DNA of 64,000 nt, from the NCBI RefSeq assembly GCF_900116295.1, contig NZ_FPAF01000008.1:98471-162470 (forward strand), written 5' to 3'. This stretch comes from Bacillus sp. 103mf (GTDB lineage Bacteria > Bacillota > Bacilli > Bacillales > Bacillaceae_G). A program made the position numbers and the translations under genes. Below the pieces are notes generated by a model. It worked only from the letters and a program-made list of their open reading frames with translations, was not told the origin of the DNA and did no database searches. This document shows, in pieces, positions 16,183 to 24,119 of the stretch; within the stretch, counting starts at the first letter, position 1, and each line of letters opens with the position of its first letter.

Positions 16183-16448
16183 AATAAATGCGGGTCATTC
16201 TATTTAACAATCGGGCCATAATTTGGAAGAGTCAAGGCTTCCAGATAGGCTAGGGGCTCTCTAATCTAGGAGTTAAAGCCAATCCCCCCTATTAAGAAGG
16301 CAAACAGCACCTTTTGAAAAGTTTGTCTTATACTTGTCGTCCCTAAACAAGGTGCTTGTATATTTATATAGGATTAATTAATAAAGGGATTAGGTTTTAA
16401 AGTTCATTCTCTTTTTATTGAGTACATTCCGGTTTAAGTTGTAATTAT

Positions 16449-17360
16449 TCAGTAAAGGACACGCCATAAATAAAAGGTAGCGTATGATTCCCAGTTTTTC
16501 CATGGAAACGATATTTCTAAGATTTCAGCTTTCGTAGGCTTTCGGTCCATATTACGTAATATTTTTATCGAATTAATAAGACCCACATCATCGATTGGAA
16601 AAGCTGTCTGGAACCTGAGGCAGCGCATTAGAACATAATTGGCTGTCCAAGGACCGATGCCTCGTATTTTAATTAAGTTTTTTTCAGCATCTTTAAAGTT
16701 CATTTTCATTAATTTCTCCTTCGATAATTCTCCACTTGCCATTAACCTGGCAATTCCAATGATATATTCACTTTTTTTTACCGTCATTTTAATATCTGCT
16801 AGGTCAGTAGGTGTTAACAGTGCAATTCGTTCGTACGGTGGGAACACCCAATACTTTTTACCATTCCATTCGATGGAATCGCCAAATCCTTCTACAAATT
16901 GCTTCTTTAAGGAGTACGCGAACGCTAAGTTAATTTGTTGCCCTAAAACTCCCCAACATAAAGCTTCAAATAAGTCGGGAATGCCGACGACTCGCAAACC
17001 ATAGAATTTTCGGGCAGGCATTTTAAGTAATGGATCTGCTTTTGCCATTTCATAAAATGGGGTTAAATCGTTATCAAGATCAAACCATTCACGAATATAT
17101 TTTACAATCTCTTCCCGTTGCCACTTTTCAATAGGCCTAGAATCATTTAAGAACTGAATAATCATTTGTTTATTATCGATTACTCTTACCTGTACCAAGG
17201 ACCGAATTCCCCCAATGGCTATGACTCTTGTAATGATACCATTCTCGATTTCATACATGCATTCATTTTTTTCCCTTGTTAGATAGCCTAGGTTAGCATT
17301 CATGTCAAACTCTTCAGGTAATGTAATAATAATATCATCATTGACTTCATGCCATTTCAC
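16449..17360 (-). CDS. alkA: AlkA-type DNA-3-methyladenine glycosylase
   Basis: A 303-residue HhH-GPD glycosylase that excises alkylated bases such as 3-methyladenine. The helix-hairpin-helix LIKIRGIGPWTANYVLMRCL is followed by the catalytic aspartate in PIDDVGL (D256/D257); VLGQQINLAFAYSLK is the family's earlier helix. Length is normal for B. subtilis AlkA. ATG start with GGGGGATG upstream. Divergent from the 2OG oxygenase and ada genes, as alkA is divergent from adaAB in B. subtilis. Part of the alkylation-repair cluster. Confidence 0.9.
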   Translation of the reverse strand: MKWHEVNDDIIITLPEEFDMNANLGYLTREKNECMYEIENGIITRVIAIGGIRSLVQVRVIDNKQMIIQFLNDSRPIEKWQREEIVKYIREWFDLDNDLTPFYEMAKADPLLKMPARKFYGLRVVGIPDLFEALCWGVLGQQINLAFAYSLKKQFVEGFGDSIEWNGKKYWVFPPYERIALLTPTDLADIKMTVKKSEYIIGIARLMASGELSKEKLMKMNFKDAEKNLIKIRGIGPWTANYVLMRCLRFQTAFPIDDVGLINSIKILRNMDRKPTKAEILEISFPWKNWESYATFYLWRVLY

Positions 17361-17470
17361 TTTTTCATCCCCCTCATCTTAATACTATCTCCTATAATAT
17401 TCACAAAATAATTAGAAGGAAAACTCACACTGATTGAAGTTTTACTTTATCACATAATAATCTTGATTAA

Positions 17471-17531
17471 TTTCGTTATCTTGCTATTACATTCTAAATA
17501 CCTTACTTTTTCCTATTTATGAGGTTATAGT
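17471..17531 (+). promoter_or_regulatory. putative Ada-activated promoter 1
   Basis: TTTCGTTATCTTGCTATTAC then ATTC (17471-17494) is nearly identical to the motif at 18291-18314. It is followed by TTACTT (17503-17508), a 17-base spacer and TATAGT (17526-17531). Motif start to -10 is 55 bases in both places. A partial copy, ATCTTGATTAATTTC, lies just upstream at 17458. The opposite strand has GCAAGA, also found in the E. coli Ada box. An activator site abutting the -35 fits methylated Ada. Confidence 0.6.
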
Positions 17532-17568
17532 GTTAGTTATCAAGAATGCTAAATAGGAAGGGATAAAA

Positions 17569-18282
17569 ATGGTTCAAGATATAAAAACACGTGTTAAAAG
17601 CTTAAATTGGGATTCAATTCAAAACGAATTAGATGAGCAAGGATTTGCAAAGCTTCCAGCAATATTAACAAAAGATGAATGTGACTTCTTCATAGAACTT
17701 TATAGTGAAGAAGGATCATACAGAACGACAATCAATATGACGAGATATCGTTTTGGGAATGGGGAGTACAAATACTTTTCCTATCCATTACCCAAAATCA
17801 TCCAAAGTTTAAGAGAATCCTTTTATCCAGAGTTGGCTAAAACAGCAAATCGATGGTTGAGTTATTTAAAGAAACCAGAACAGTTTCCAGATCATCTTCA
17901 AGATTTTTTGAAAACATGTGAAGAATATGAACAAACTAGACCAACACCCTTAATTTTAAAGTATGAAAAAGGCGGGTTTAATTGCTTGCACCAAGATTTA
18001 TATGGAGACGTATTTTTCCCATTTCAAGTAGTGTTTGTATTAAATCAACGAGATAAAGACTTTTGCGGTGGAGAATCCCTATTAGTGGAACAAATTCCTC
18101 GTGCTCAGAGTAGGGGGCATGTGATTACTTTGGAACAAGGTGGTGCGCTGATCTTTCCTACTAACCATAGACCTGCTCTAGGTAAAAAAGGATATTACAA
18201 AAATACGGTTCGTCACGGAGTAAGTACGGTTACTTCTGGAGAACGATACGGTCTTGGAATCATTTTTCATGATTCCAAGTAA
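17569..18282 (+). CDS. 2OG-Fe(II) oxygenase in the ada cluster
   Basis: A 237-residue non-heme iron, 2-oxoglutarate dependent oxygenase. The iron triad is visible as H141-x-D143 (CLHQDLYGD) and H216 (TVRHGVS), with R226 (ERYGLG) placed to bind 2-oxoglutarate. It resembles the COG3826 group, not canonical AlkB. It is transcribed alone from a promoter carrying the same motif as adaA, so a role in reversing or signalling alkylation damage is likely but is inference. ATG start, with an AGGAAGGGAT site upstream. Confidence 0.85.
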   Translation: MVQDIKTRVKSLNWDSIQNELDEQGFAKLPAILTKDECDFFIELYSEEGSYRTTINMTRYRFGNGEYKYFSYPLPKIIQSLRESFYPELAKTANRWLSYLKKPEQFPDHLQDFLKTCEEYEQTRPTPLILKYEKGGFNCLHQDLYGDVFFPFQVVFVLNQRDKDFCGGESLLVEQIPRAQSRGHVITLEQGGALIFPTNHRPALGKKGYYKNTVRHGVSTVTSGERYGLGIIFHDSK

Positions 18283-18290
18283 ATATTAAA

Positions 18291-18351
18291 TTTCAATATC
18301 TTGCTATTTCATTCCTAGAATTGTACATTCTGAATTTATAGGGAGTATATT
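18291..18351 (+). promoter_or_regulatory. putative Ada-activated promoter 2 (adaA operon)
   Basis: TTTCAATATCTTGCTATTTC then ATTC (18291-18314) repeats the motif found before the 2OG oxygenase gene. TATATT at 18346-18351 is the -10, again 55 bases from the motif start. TTGTAC (18321-18326) is the -35 but the spacer is 19 bases, a weak basal promoter that would need an activator. The resulting leader is only about 13 bases and still holds GAGGTGA. Confidence 0.6.
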
Positions 18352-18370
18352 GTAAGGAGAGGTGAGATAA

Positions 18371-18991
18371 ATGCCGGATAGTATCAATAATGAATTACAA
18401 GAGAGCCATGATCATAGAATTTTGAATGACGTGGACATGATGACAAATGAAAAGTGGCAAGCAATTATAGACAATGATGCTTCGTACAATAATCAATTTT
18501 TCTATGCTGTAAAGACCACAGGGATCTTCTGTAAACCGTCATGCAAATCTCGCGTTCCGAAAAAAGAAAATGTACGTATTTTCCCAAACGCAGAACAAGC
18601 TCTCCGTGCAAATTTTCGCCCTTGTAAACGTTGTAAGCCTACTAATGTGAGATTGCCTGATAATGAATGGGTGATACTTATCACAGAATACATTGATAAA
18701 AATTTTACAGAAAAATTAACTCTAGAAACGCTATCAGATATTGCTCACGGGAGTCCCTATCATTTGCATCGAACGTTTAAAAAGATTAAAGGCATCACGC
18801 CAGTTGAGTATATACAACAGGTTAGATTAAACGCGGCTAAAGAGTATTTGATTCAGACAAATAAAGCGATTGCGGATATCGCCATATGTGTGGGTATGGC
18901 TAACACGCCCTATTTTATTACCTTATTTAAAAAGAAAACCGGACAGACGCCAGCACAATTTCGTCAAATGAGCAAAATGGAGGAAATGTAA
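18371..18991 (+). CDS. adaA: AdaA methylphosphotriester-DNA methyltransferase/activator
   Basis: A 206-residue sensor of DNA alkylation. The N-terminal Ada zinc domain has C54, C58, C85 and C88 (FCKPSCKS and RPCKRC); C54 corresponds to the E. coli methyl acceptor C38. The C-terminal half is an AraC-type double helix-turn-helix (YHLHRTFKKIKGITPVEYIQ). After accepting a methyl group from a phosphotriester it activates repair genes. Similar in length and layout to B. subtilis AdaA (211). First gene of an operon with ogt/adaB, a radical SAM gene and an Ada-zinc gene. Confidence 0.93.
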   Translation: MPDSINNELQESHDHRILNDVDMMTNEKWQAIIDNDASYNNQFFYAVKTTGIFCKPSCKSRVPKKENVRIFPNAEQALRANFRPCKRCKPTNVRLPDNEWVILITEYIDKNFTEKLTLETLSDIAHGSPYHLHRTFKKIKGITPVEYIQQVRLNAAKEYLIQTNKAIADIAICVGMANTPYFITLFKKKTGQTPAQFRQMSKMEEM

Positions 18992-18992
18992 A

Positions 18993-19526
18993 ATGGAAAC
19001 AAAGAATAAACCAACCGTTTATTGGTCTTTACTAAAGTTTAAGGATTGGAAATTTTATATTGCTTCAACCTCTAAGGGTCTATGCTATGTAGGTTCACAG
19101 AACAAACCATTCGAAGAATTGTGCGAATGGGCTAAGAAACGCTTTCCAGGAAGTCCTCTTATTGAAGATGGTGAAAAGCTTGAACCTTATGCGGTTGAAA
19201 TCACCCAGTATCTAGAAAGAAAAAGGAAAACCTTTACTGTTCCATTTGATTATAATGGGACAGCATTCCAGCTTGCAGTCTGGAACGCACTTTGTGAGAT
19301 TCCATACGGACAGACGAAGTCCTATTCCGACATTGCAAATTATATAAATAAACCAGCAGCTGTTCGTGCTGTAGGGGCAGCCATCGGAGCTAATCCAGTA
19401 TTAATCACCGTACCGTGTCATCGTGTAGTAGGAAAGAATGGATCATTAACTGGCTATCGTGGCGGATTAGAAATGAAGACACTGCTTTTGGATCTGGAAA
19501 GACAAGCTTCTTCCAGCAATGAGTGA
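18993..19526 (+). CDS. ogt: methylated-DNA-protein-cysteine methyltransferase (AdaB/Ogt)
   Basis: A 177-residue suicide enzyme that removes methyl from O6-methylguanine and O4-methylthymine. The active-site PCHRVVG has C142, preceded by the DNA-binding helix YSDIANYINKPAAVRAVGAA. It starts one base after the adaA stop, with its GGAGG site inside the end of adaA, so translation is coupled. Equivalent to adaB of B. subtilis. Confidence 0.93.
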   Translation: METKNKPTVYWSLLKFKDWKFYIASTSKGLCYVGSQNKPFEELCEWAKKRFPGSPLIEDGEKLEPYAVEITQYLERKRKTFTVPFDYNGTAFQLAVWNALCEIPYGQTKSYSDIANYINKPAAVRAVGAAIGANPVLITVPCHRVVGKNGSLTGYRGGLEMKTLLLDLERQASSSNE

Positions 19527-19562
19527 TTATTGCCGTACAATGAAGGAAAAGGAGGTTCCGTC

Positions 19563-20381
19563 ATGAAAAGTGAATTGTTCTATAAAAACCCGAAAACCAT
19601 TCTTAATAAAGGTACAGGCTTTCTTTCTGGATATACTCATTCACTAAATCCTTATACAGGCTGTTCATTTGGGTGTTCATATTGTTATGTACGCCAAATG
19701 CCTGTATCCCTTTTTCGAGAAGGGGAATGGGGAAATTGGGTCGATGTTAAAAATGGAGCTGCGAATTTACTAAGCAAGGAGCTTCATCGTGCCAAAGCCA
19801 AAGGGAATGTAACCATTTTTATGTCATCAAGCACAGACCCGTATCAACCAGTAGAGTATAAGGAAAAAGTAACGCAATCTCTACTAAAGGTTATGGTAGA
19901 AGATCCCCCTGACTTCTTATTAGTACAGACGAGGAGCCCGCTTGTAAGTCGAGATATCGATTTGCTGCAGCATTTAAAAGATAGAGTCCGGGTAAGTATG
20001 ACAATTGAAACGGATTCGGAAACGATACGTAAACATTTTACTCCAGAGGCACCTCCTATTCAGGCACGCTTTAAGACATTGGAAAAATTAGTGGATGCGG
20101 GAATACCGACCCAAGTGGCGATAGCACCCATATTACCGAGTGGGGAATATTTTCCTGAGAAATTGAAGCCATTCGTCGATCGGATATGTATTGATGACTA
20201 CTTTATGGGCGATGGCAGTGGAGGAAAACGGACGAGAAAACTTGGAATTGAAAAAAAATACGCCCAACTTGGTTTAGAAGAATGGTATGGACCGCAAGTT
20301 ATTAAAAAAGTATATAACAGATTTATAGAAACCTTTCCGGAAAATCAGGTTTATGTGAGCCAGACAGGGTTCGAACCGTAA
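19563..20381 (+). CDS. radical SAM protein, SplB-related (COG1533)
   Basis: A 272-residue radical SAM enzyme with the cluster motif C34-x3-C38-x2-C41 (GCSFGCSYCYV) near the N-terminus and MSSSTDPYQPVE after it. It belongs with the SplB/Rv2578c-like group but is shorter than spore photoproduct lyase (about 340) and lacks its N-terminal part. The ATG at 19563 follows AAGGAGG by 8 bases. Its place between ogt and an Ada-zinc protein, inside an ada operon, suggests a DNA-repair reaction not yet assigned. Radical SAM membership is certain; the role is inference. Confidence 0.85.
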   Translation: MKSELFYKNPKTILNKGTGFLSGYTHSLNPYTGCSFGCSYCYVRQMPVSLFREGEWGNWVDVKNGAANLLSKELHRAKAKGNVTIFMSSSTDPYQPVEYKEKVTQSLLKVMVEDPPDFLLVQTRSPLVSRDIDLLQHLKDRVRVSMTIETDSETIRKHFTPEAPPIQARFKTLEKLVDAGIPTQVAIAPILPSGEYFPEKLKPFVDRICIDDYFMGDGSGGKRTRKLGIEKKYAQLGLEEWYGPQVIKKVYNRFIETFPENQVYVSQTGFEP

Positions 20382-20400
20382 AAAAATAGGAAGTAATTGC

Positions 20401-20694
20401 ATGTATAAAGATAATGAGAAAAGTGCTGAAAATAGAAAAAAGACATTCACCCTGTTGGGTGCCGATATGCATCCATATCAAAGTGATACACCGGGTATTT
20501 TTGGTGGGTATCGACTGAGTAAATTATATGGAAGATTAGATTGTCCCTCAGCGCTTAGAGCTATAGCAAAAGGTGGATACGTTAAACATCGCGTGTTTTT
20601 TGCCGATGAACAGACGGCTATATCGGCAGGTTTTAGACCATGTGCAGTTTGCATGTCTGAAAAATATGCACGATGGAAGAAAAAGAAAAGATAA
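20401..20694 (+). CDS. stand-alone Ada-type metal-binding domain protein
   Basis: A 97-residue protein resembling the Ada zinc domain alone. C48 (GRLDCPSALR), H63 (YVKHRVFFADE) and C81/C84 (RPCAVC) line up with the Ada four-cysteine site, but the second cysteine is replaced and a histidine may serve. There is no helix-turn-helix, so it could repair methylphosphotriesters or bind metal without regulating. Last gene of the adaA operon, 19 bases after the radical SAM gene; GGAAG lies ahead of the ATG. Confidence 0.75.
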   Translation: MYKDNEKSAENRKKTFTLLGADMHPYQSDTPGIFGGYRLSKLYGRLDCPSALRAIAKGGYVKHRVFFADEQTAISAGFRPCAVCMSEKYARWKKKKR

Positions 20695-20697
20695 GAG

Positions 20698-21001
20698 GTG
20701 CTGTATTTCTTTTCTCTACTTCACTATCCGCTTGTTCAATCGACTCCCCTCCACCTTTTTTGCTTTTCGATTTTGTTTGTATCCGTTTTGCCTTCTCCCA
20801 AGGAGGTACCTCTTCTTTCTTCGTAGGAGTTTCAGGAACCTCCCATCCATCCGTAATATGCGGCCGCTCTTATTTCAATAATTCTTTCAATATAGTTTGC
20901 GTATATAGCGCACCGCTTGCTATAAACACAGCAAGTAATAAACAAATACTAACTAAAAGCATCTGAAATACAAAACGCTTTCGTTTATATATCATACTCA
21001 T
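20698..21001 (-). pseudogene. broken third gene of the moxR-DUF58 operon
   Basis: On the minus strand ATG at 21001 opens MSMIYKRKRFVFQML and a membrane segment to KELLK, then an in-frame TAA at 20870. Past the stop the same frame goes on in protein-like sequence (ERPHITDGWEVPETPTKKEE, then VPPWEKAKRIQTKS) until it collides with the 3' end of the ada operon. In related operons a transglutaminase or DUF4129 membrane protein follows DUF58. This looks like a truncated remnant of such a gene. No good ribosome site is seen. Confidence 0.5.
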
Positions 21002-23274: not shown

Positions 23275-23299
23275 ATGAATCAACATACTAATGCTATAA

Positions 23300-23552
23300 A
23301 AAAGCAACGAAAAGGACACGAGATATTCTTACGGTTTTACAGAGAAGGAAGAATTGCTGAGATCTTCCTAAACGCAGGAGAATATACTTACCACCTTGGA
23401 GCTGTATTGGGGAAACAGAGTATCCAATGCCGTAGACGCTACGTTACAGCGAATGGAGCCATCGACGCTTTTTTAAGTACGATGGGAATCTGGGTGGAAC
23501 CACGGGTTTTAACGCACTCGTCCCTGTTTTAGGGATGAGTGCGTTTTTTATT
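23300..23552 (+). promoter_or_regulatory. threonine T-box 1 of 3
   Basis: A complete T-box leader: stem I region, a specifier loop with ACC in CTTACCACCTTGGAGC (a threonine codon), the T-box core GGGTGGAACCACGGG (23492-23506), and a terminator of ACGCACTCGTCCCT paired with AGGGATGAGTGCGT followed by T's (23511-23549). Uncharged tRNA-Thr would favour antitermination. Confidence 0.93.
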
Positions 23553-23577
23553 TTCTTAATTCCATATAACAATTAGC

Positions 23578-23824
23578 TATGAAAAGGACACGAGATATTC
23601 TTACGGTTTTACAGAGAAGGAAGAGTTGCTGAGATCTTCCTAAACGCAGGAGAATACACTTACCACCTTGGAGCTGTATTGGGGAAACAGAGTATCCAAT
23701 ACCGTAGACGCTACGTTACAGCGAATGGAGCCATCGATGCTTTTTTAAAGTACGATGGGAATCTGGGTGGAACCACGGGTTTTAACGCACTCGTCCCTAT
23801 TTTAGGGATGAGTGCGTTTTTTAT
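23578..23824 (+). promoter_or_regulatory. threonine T-box 2 of 3
   Basis: An almost exact copy of T-box 1 with the same ACC specifier, core (23764-23778) and terminator (23784-23823). It differs by a few substitutions and one extra A in the run before the T-box core. Spacers between copies are also conserved, showing recent tandem duplication. Confidence 0.93.
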
Positions 23825-24096: not shown

Positions 24097-24119
24097 TATT
24101 ATGAAATGGAGTGATAATG

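Follow-up and report, generated by a model that had tools for sequence, protein, structure and literature searches.

What do a 2-oxoglutarate (2OG)-Fe(II) oxygenase, a radical S-adenosylmethionine (SAM) protein and a small stand-alone Ada-type zinc protein do in the company of the alkylation-repair genes alkA, adaA and ogt? The question is raised by six genes at positions 16449..20694 of a 64,000-nucleotide stretch of Bacillus sp. 103mf (contig NZ_FPAF01000008.1, positions 98,471 to 162,470), which we call the window throughout. A preliminary description of this DNA had proposed an extended adaptive response with three unassigned repair-type proteins. We consider it probable that the six genes form a horizontally transferred, inducible Ada cassette, which combines an oxidative dealkylase with an Ada zinc module that does not accept methyl groups. 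The regulation and the linkage of the cassette appear strong, as judged by sequence comparison.

Linkage, putative operator and spread of the gene block

All six open reading frames (ORFs) were found in the window where the preliminary description had placed them, and Pfam confirmed the cluster with alkA, adaA and ogt. The minus strand carries the gene for an alkA-type 3-methyladenine DNA glycosylase (16449..17360, 303 aa; Pfam OGG_N, HhH-GPD and AlkA_N). Divergently from it, on the plus strand, follow the genes for the oxygenase (17569..18282, 237 aa), the regulator AdaA (18371..18991, 206 aa), the O6-methylguanine-DNA methyltransferase Ogt/AdaB (18993..19526, 177 aa; PF01035, E 3.2e-33), the radical SAM protein, which is like spore photoproduct lyase (SPL; 19563..20381), and the stand-alone Ada zinc-type protein, here called AdaZn (20401..20694, 97 aa). 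By Pfam and alignment, AdaA joins an Ada zinc domain to an AraC helix-turn-helix (HTH), and its zinc cysteines C54, C58, C85 and C88 are invariant in 9/9 aligned sequences. With this four-cysteine domain and the AraC HTH it is a regulator of the Ada-regulon type.

To follow the linkage, we collected 35 loci that carry the oxygenase gene, 30 of them from Bacillota. The preliminary description had named linkage to ada no better than chance as an outcome that would speak against its proposal. This check, which we ran in part, left the proposal intact: adaA and/or ogt lie in the fetched stretch of 28 of the 30 Bacillota loci, compared with the roughly 0.4% of a 5-Mb genome that a 20-kb stretch represents by plain arithmetic. 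The two unlinked loci are L014, a short contig with alkA only, and L024, which has no other cassette gene. Whole or partial, alkA is found in 22 of the 30.

A motif common to two transcription units had also been noticed before, and it is borne out by a 26-nt repeat, identical at 23 of 26 positions, upstream of the oxygenase gene (17469-17494) and of adaA (18289-18314). This is the best 26-nt match of the two intergenic regions, and 1000 dinucleotide shuffles reached at most 20 identities. Within the repeat lies a 17-nt putative AdaA operator. Its copy 1, ATCTTGCTATTACATTC (17478..17494, plus strand), stands between the alkA and oxygenase promoters, which diverge, and copy 2, ATCTTGCTATTTCATTC (18298..18314, plus strand), lies in the adaA promoter. 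Each copy starts 48 nt ahead of a candidate -10 hexamer on the plus strand, TATAGT for the oxygenase (17526..17531) and TATATT for adaA (18346..18351), both read from the sequence and present in most aligned rows. Exact matches to the 17-nt pattern in the window are confined to these two sites; with up to three mismatches, a looser and weaker test, there are three matches against 1.37 expected. In an alignment of the alkA-oxygenase intergenic region from 22 sequences, TGTGATAAAGT (17444..17454, minus strand) is mostly conserved on the alkA side, where it may serve as the extended -10 of alkA. A single operator between the divergent genes, together with this conserved element, would fit a bidirectional activator site.

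The motif is found well beyond the window. We counted only gene matches that start at residue 1 and are more than 60% identical, which omits the oxygenase rows of L026 and five Bacteroidota and, for adaA, also L018, L020, L021 and L023 among others. Among the related loci and the window, the motif then occurs with at most three mismatches in 29 of 30 oxygenase promoters, 83-94 nt ahead of the start codon, and in 22 of 23 adaA promoters, 71-76 nt ahead, the exception being L029. The sole oxygenase promoter without it is that of L024, the Bacillota locus that has no other cassette gene nearby. For a clade test, 40 stretches were sampled, 36 of which had an AdaA-like match, and up to four mismatches were allowed. 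The motif stands upstream of all 13 sampled adaA genes at 48% identity or more (in L108 the best copy precedes a broken oxygenase gene, and L104 has four mismatches) and upstream of none of the 23 Ada-zinc proteins at 43% or less. Finally, seven related genomes carrying the oxygenase were scanned throughout. Among the matches listed, all ten exact sites precede an oxygenase gene or an adaA, that of a second adaA-ogt copy (L036) among them, while the five one-mismatch sites divide into two before adaA or oxygenase genes, one beside alkA and two elsewhere. The pattern turned backwards, our control, gave 0-3 matches per strand at up to two mismatches. Off-regulon matches with one or two mismatches occur at L044, at L061 and in a repeat of G005 that has many two-mismatch matches. 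From the promoter conservation, the clade restriction and the placement of the exact sites, we conclude that the 17-nt motif is a well-supported candidate for the shared operator of this AdaA clade. Together with the linkage, the clade-specific operator lends good support to the predicted extension of the adaptive response.

In Bacillus subtilis, the Ada regulon is arranged as adaA-adaB and alkA, and in E. coli ada is joined by alkB (ada-alkB). The cassette resembles the regulons of B. subtilis and E. coli in its AdaA-type zinc-plus-AraC regulator, in ogt and alkA, in the divergent arrangement of alkA and in a motif at an activator-like position. An Ada regulon is recognized by an operator that the promoters of its genes have in common, and such an operator was found here by comparison. 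The cassette differs in adding the oxygenase, the radical SAM protein and AdaZn, in apparently moving as a unit and in using an operator that seems specific to its own AdaA clade. A separate observation was made in Bacillus sp. OV166 (L047 1435-2601), where the motif, with one mismatch, lies between alkA and a D-2-hydroxyacid dehydrogenase gene and has a -10-like site spaced almost as in the cassette copies.

By blastn, 31 of the 35 related loci align with the window, 24 of them at 80-94% DNA identity throughout, including loci from Aneurinibacillus and Brevibacillus. The alignments are almost confined to about 16395-20698, the block common to loci of other genera, and we take 16395..20698 (no strand) as the extent of the cassette; L004 extends further, to 16213 or 16127. 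Heyndrickxia L001 aligns over 16395-20698 and L009 over 16416-20689, both at 92%, Aneurinibacillus L013 aligns over 17442-20698 at 91%, and the older relatives L018, L020 and L023 align at 72-75%. Beyond the block the alignments amount to one 247-nt match with L015 (68%) and, close to 5920, short pieces of 60-78 nt with three loci. High identity without shared flanks is the sole basis on which we conclude that the block was transferred horizontally and is, by all appearances, a mobile cassette that moves between genera. Pfam finds no recombinase among its six genes, and no repeats of at least 14 nt bracket it between 15900 and 21100, so that neither of the marks of a mobile element, an own recombinase or element ends, was found. 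The block also decays: the oxygenase gene is broken in L028, L029, L034 and L035, several loci have no more than fragments of alkA, and in L108 only remnants of the oxygenase and radical SAM genes are left.

The oxygenase and its probable zinc-protein partner

The oxygenase is a member of Pfam PF09859 (Oxygenase-NA; 256.3 bits against a cut-off of 26.2, E 1.3e-76), and the residues H141, D143 and H216 that the preliminary description had pointed out are invariant in 19/19 aligned sequences. The earlier count of three unassigned repair proteins is too high in this respect, since the Pfam family is already named as a damaged-DNA oxygenase. This name is an annotation, and a literature search that left most subscription papers outside its reach found no paper on the activity of PF09859. 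With AlkB (PF13532), the protein shares the 2OG-Fe(II) chemistry class, the HxD...H ligands and a place in ada gene runs. It differs in belonging to a separate Pfam family and in coexisting with AlkB in some runs. The window protein gives no PF13532 match at E 0.1, which places it outside the AlkB family, and its profile matches none of the solved 2OG oxygenases, AlkB included. The alkB gene lies in the same run as the oxygenase gene in Paracoccus, in Acetobacter and in 7 of 13 Flavobacteriales; its presence in the first two makes it unlikely that the oxygenase merely substitutes for AlkB.

Among plasmids, 88 records matched the oxygenase, 44 of them from Pseudosulfitobacter. We opened 20 plasmid loci chosen for variety, 16 found with the oxygenase and four via AdaZn, and detected Ada or Ogt within the 2-5 kb flanks of 13. 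The order ada-oxygenase is seen in the loci of Azospirillum, Paracoccus and Acetobacter. On this comparison, the oxygenase is evidently an Ada-operon gene in several phyla, and it is likely an oxidative dealkylase, a chemistry that we infer.

A related case comes from Caulobacter. As reported for this species (PMC10957082), the strongest induction by methyl methanesulfonate is that of ccna_00745, which is predicted to encode a 2OG-Fe dioxygenase; the gene is co-operonic with cada1 (ccna_00746), which joins an Ada A-box zinc-type domain to a methyltransferase, and the regulator Cada2 is described there as having no Ada A-box domain. Because Caulobacter vibrioides is the only one of 14 control genomes with PF09859, ccna_00745 is probably a member of this family, and the adaptive induction of a PF09859-type oxygenase is then probably already known in one species. 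The Cada regulon resembles our cassette in its methylation-induced dioxygenase that is co-operonic with an Ada A-box protein, and the Flavobacteriales runs described below have a Cada2-like regulator in 3/3 cases scanned. It differs in that the Caulobacter zinc-type domain is fused to a methyltransferase, whereas AdaZn stands alone.

Two plasmid loci deserve mention on their own account. On the Staphylococcus saprophyticus plasmid NZ_CP022057.1 (L200 1750-12195), the oxygenase, radical SAM, alkA, adaA and ogt genes lie beside hxlA and hxlB and also adjoin a glucose-6-phosphate isomerase gene and gndA. These neighbours make up most of the ribulose-monophosphate route for formaldehyde. Although a single case, this context is compatible with a formaldehyde-releasing oxygenase. 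A repeat search gave no convincing shared motif beside hxlAB in this stretch, which ends inside hxlA. On a Rhodococcus plasmid (L102 2060-4255), genes for a sigma factor, a methyltransferase, the PF09859 oxygenase and AdaZn stand in a row, and here the oxygenase-AdaZn pair is perhaps under the sigma factor and not under Ada.

AdaZn scores 25.4 bits against PF02805 (Ada_Zn; cut-off 23) and is thus a member of the zinc-domain family. The earlier label of a stand-alone Ada zinc protein holds to this extent; the match is limited to positions 20-63 of the 65-position Ada domain profile, and the acceptor cysteine is replaced. AdaZn aligns to AdaA with an hhalign probability of 94%, and its profile matches E. 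coli N-Ada (1adn) with E 4.2e-5. In E. coli Ada the methyl acceptor is Cys38, as stated in two reports (PMC10957082, PMC4437013). By two separate profile alignments, one to AdaA and one to E. coli N-Ada, Gly44 of AdaZn stands at this position. Glycine is found there in all 32 AdaZn proteins compared, a set without the two broken copies, in which C81 is kept by 32 and C84 by 31. In comparison with N-Ada (1adn, 1wpk, 1u8b), AdaZn keeps three of the four zinc cysteines (C48, C81 and C84, equivalent to C42, C69 and C72) and the RPCxxC segment; it differs in its glycine, in standing alone and in having no HTH. Because glycine replaces the Cys38 equivalent, AdaZn is not expected to accept methyl groups in the way that Ada does.

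AdaZn follows the oxygenase across distant bacteria. In Flavobacteriales, PF09859 occurs in 13 of 196 genomes and full-length AdaZn (E <1e-30) in exactly the same 13, always 32-253 nt beyond the oxygenase domain (hypergeometric p 1.5e-20 with the genomes treated as independent, which they are not). Fifteen further genomes gave lesser AdaZn matches: one is a two-stop fragment (E 3e-13), and fourteen (E 1e-6 to 1e-5) are ORFs of 350-380 residues that look like Ada itself. In 7 of the 13, an HTH-and-methyltransferase gene, the oxygenase gene, AdaZn and alkB stand in line, with a gene of the short-chain dehydrogenase/reductase type intervening in L190. The three regulators scanned are each one ORF with AraC HTH and methyltransferase and without the Ada zinc domain. 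The other 6 of the 13 show no other queried alkylation gene in the 4.5-8 kb fetched. Among 199 Bacillales genomes, four have PF09859 and three a strong AdaZn match, with two in common (p 0.0009). Of seven plasmid records with AdaZn we opened six and found a confirmed PF09859 gene immediately upstream in Rhodococcus, two Streptomyces and Cupriavidus, the two genes overlapping by 4 nt in Streptomyces L199; the plasmid AdaZn genes of Psychrobacillus and Microvirga have no PF09859 gene immediately upstream. In a phage collection, two equal-length uncultured-phage records gave a weak AdaZn match, and no others did. The pair is thus present in four phyla, Bacillota, Bacteroidota, Actinomycetota and Pseudomonadota, and because they occur together across phyla, AdaZn and the oxygenase probably work as a pair. 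We consider AdaZn a likely non-acceptor partner of the oxygenase, a reading limited in Bacillota by the frequent absence of AdaZn.

Two further observations concern AdaZn. In the Flavobacteriales locus L187 (2220-3062, minus strand) AdaZn and AlkB lie in one ORF (PF02805 and PF13532), which could be a real fusion or a one-base error; in the relative L186 the two genes overlap. In Neobacillus novalis, two copies of AdaZn are located apart from the oxygenase locus (L071 1483-1800; L072 784-1200, minus strand).

The radical SAM protein

Counted from the ATG at 19563, which has GGAGG upstream and is a more likely start than the TTG at 19530, the protein has 272 residues. The CX3CX2C motif of the preliminary description is C34/C38/C41, the canonical radical SAM motif, and is present in 13/13 aligned rows; with 53.1 bits against PF04055 (Radical_SAM; cut-off 29.5, E 5.7e-14), the protein belongs to the superfamily. 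It shares the radical SAM core with spore photoproduct lyase and COG1533 (PA0069 and Rv2578c families), matching the SPL Pfam model with E 1.6e-4 and 4fhg with E 0.4. It differs in that the scores against the Pfam SPL model (PF20903, 21.1 against 27) and all listed NCBIfam models, such as TIGR04070 (30.1 against 400) and rSAM_PA0069 (137.6 against 360), remain below the curated cut-offs.

Radical SAM matches at E 0.001 occur in 62 of the 199 Bacillales genomes; we opened 49 loci, the remaining matches being weak. Nine are linked to ada or ogt, among them a degraded copy (G148) and one with a single in-frame stop (G119). Except for G148, the linked copies share 67% or more of their residues with the window protein, a line that was drawn after the data had been seen and that leaves the Fisher value for the linkage descriptive. 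A partial copy in G022 (67% over 192 residues) is unlinked, lies outside the linked tree group and is counted among the forty others. Seven of these forty lie about 2 kb from a gene that we take to be of the Y-family-polymerase type, not in one evident operon. In a 61-row tree, 21 linked rows including the window protein form a group (93/90; 98/92 in a 59-row tree), and the Staphylococcus plasmid copy falls elsewhere. A single clade of all linked copies is rejected by the approximately unbiased test (p-AU 0.023), with long branches and tested after the first tree had been seen. The gene also keeps company with ogt when the order is rearranged, as adaA-ogt-oxygenase-radical SAM in L110/L111 and as ogt-radical SAM without nearby adaA in L106/L107. 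We conclude that the protein evidently represents one ada/ogt-linked clade of a mostly unlinked family, and that the Staphylococcus plasmid copy beside the oxygenase probably reflects a second recruitment. Two probable recruitments beside alkylation genes argue for a function there. The earlier description needs correction on this point, since most of the family is not ada-linked; one clade and probably one separate recruitment are. In some Lysinibacillus copies, columns 1-150 are near-identical to the window protein and columns 151-273 divergent, as if they had recombined.

Rfam at its gathering thresholds gave no match within the cluster. Elsewhere in the window, two tandem T-box leaders (23298-23528 and 23570-23801) lie ahead of a 643-aa ORF at 24111.

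A proposed mechanism and its rivals

The cassette may work as follows. Methyl damage in DNA would methylate AdaA at a zinc-bound cysteine, as in E. coli Ada, and methylated AdaA would bind ATCTTGCTATTnCATTC, the operator defined by comparison. Bound AdaA should then activate adaA, ogt, the radical SAM gene and AdaZn, the oxygenase gene and, through the same intergenic operator, the divergent alkA. AlkA repairs 3-methylpurines and Ogt O6-methylguanine. The PF09859 enzyme would be an AlkB-like dealkylase from which the alkyl group leaves as an aldehyde, and since some gene runs carry both enzymes, its target is probably a lesion outside the range of AlkB. AdaZn, having lost the acceptor cysteine, could be the subunit by which the oxygenase binds DNA or the lesion, as the pairing in four phyla suggests, and the radical SAM protein may be a lineage-specific accessory repair enzyme.

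Several findings weigh against this reading. Seven of the 20 opened plasmid loci have no Ada or Ogt gene in their 2-5 kb flanks (two Rhizobium, Burkholderia, Caballeronia, C. campinensis and two Streptomyces). AdaZn is intact in just 4 of the 30 Bacillota oxygenase loci, and a whole-genome search of 29 oxygenase carriers found it intact in four (beside the oxygenase in three, and in the fourth as two copies at other places) and broken in two more; because so few loci and genomes hold an intact copy, it cannot be essential to the Bacillota oxygenase. AdaZn is also found without the oxygenase, twice adjoining HNH-type genes, and its three retained cysteines could allow methyl acceptance via C48. 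Finally, for 40 of the 49 radical SAM homologues whose loci were opened, the fetched stretch shows no ada or ogt nearby, and a universal adaptive-response role of this protein is rejected on these grounds. The two AdaZn-like genes beside nuclease-type genes are those of L101 (3938-5014), next to an HNH gene (PF01844) in a restriction-modification plasmid island, and of L112 (4401-5224), next to an HNH_4 gene just under the cut-off; the AdaZn module may also serve nucleases.

Could the radical SAM gene and AdaZn be mere passengers that come and go at a mobile cassette's 3' end, with an ordinary Ada regulon of alkA, adaA, ogt and oxygenase doing the repair? Of the 30 Bacillota loci with the oxygenase, 19 have the radical SAM gene (a fragment in one) and six have AdaZn (broken in two); decayed cassette copies are common, and most radical SAM homologues live elsewhere. 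We nevertheless consider this unlikely, given that the radical SAM gene stays with ogt through rearranged orders, was probably recruited again beside the oxygenase on the Staphylococcus plasmid (on the post hoc test given above), and that AdaZn accompanies the oxygenase in four phyla.

It is likewise improbable that the oxygenase, induced along with the Ada regulon, detoxifies free nucleotides, RNA or a small-molecule alkylating agent. The distance of PF09859 from AlkB, the missing profile match to any solved 2OG oxygenase and the location of the gene away from ada in some species would agree with such a substrate, but the recurrent partner has an Ada-type domain, which in one genome shares an ORF with AlkB, and the genes in a run with the oxygenase at several of the opened plasmid loci are mostly DNA-repair genes. 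It is very improbable that AdaZn resembles the N-terminal part of Ada in function and acts as a further methyl acceptor or a sensor of damage, despite its PF02805 and N-Ada matches, three cysteines and RPCxxC segment; a second acceptor is rejected as the main reading by the glycine at the acceptor position in 32/32 proteins and two alignments, the protein also having no HTH.

Within our preferred reading, an inducible cassette with an oxidative dealkylase and a non-acceptor zinc module, one rather improbable but specific version is that AdaZn and the oxygenase are a two-part enzyme for backbone repair. AdaZn, which would keep the Ada fold that grips methylated phosphates, would present a methyl phosphotriester, perhaps in the diastereomeric form that is beyond repair by Ada, and the oxygenase would remove the methyl group as formaldehyde. 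We know of no example of catalytic oxidative repair of DNA backbone methylation. If true, such repair would exist in four phyla and would have moved between genera on a cassette. In a search that left most subscription papers outside, we did not find in print the pairing with an acceptor-less AdaZn, the AdaA-clade operator, the mobile cassette or the linked radical SAM group.

In summary, what textbooks say of the Ada response comes mostly from E. coli. The putative clade-specific operator, the apparently mobile cassette and the pair that crosses phyla hint at a further repair activity in ada gene runs, sometimes beside AlkB. The pairing of this 2OG oxygenase with a zinc module of the Ada type whose nucleophile is lost offers a precise and cheap test of that activity. 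The cassette could also help to explain the resistance of environmental bacteria to natural methylating compounds.

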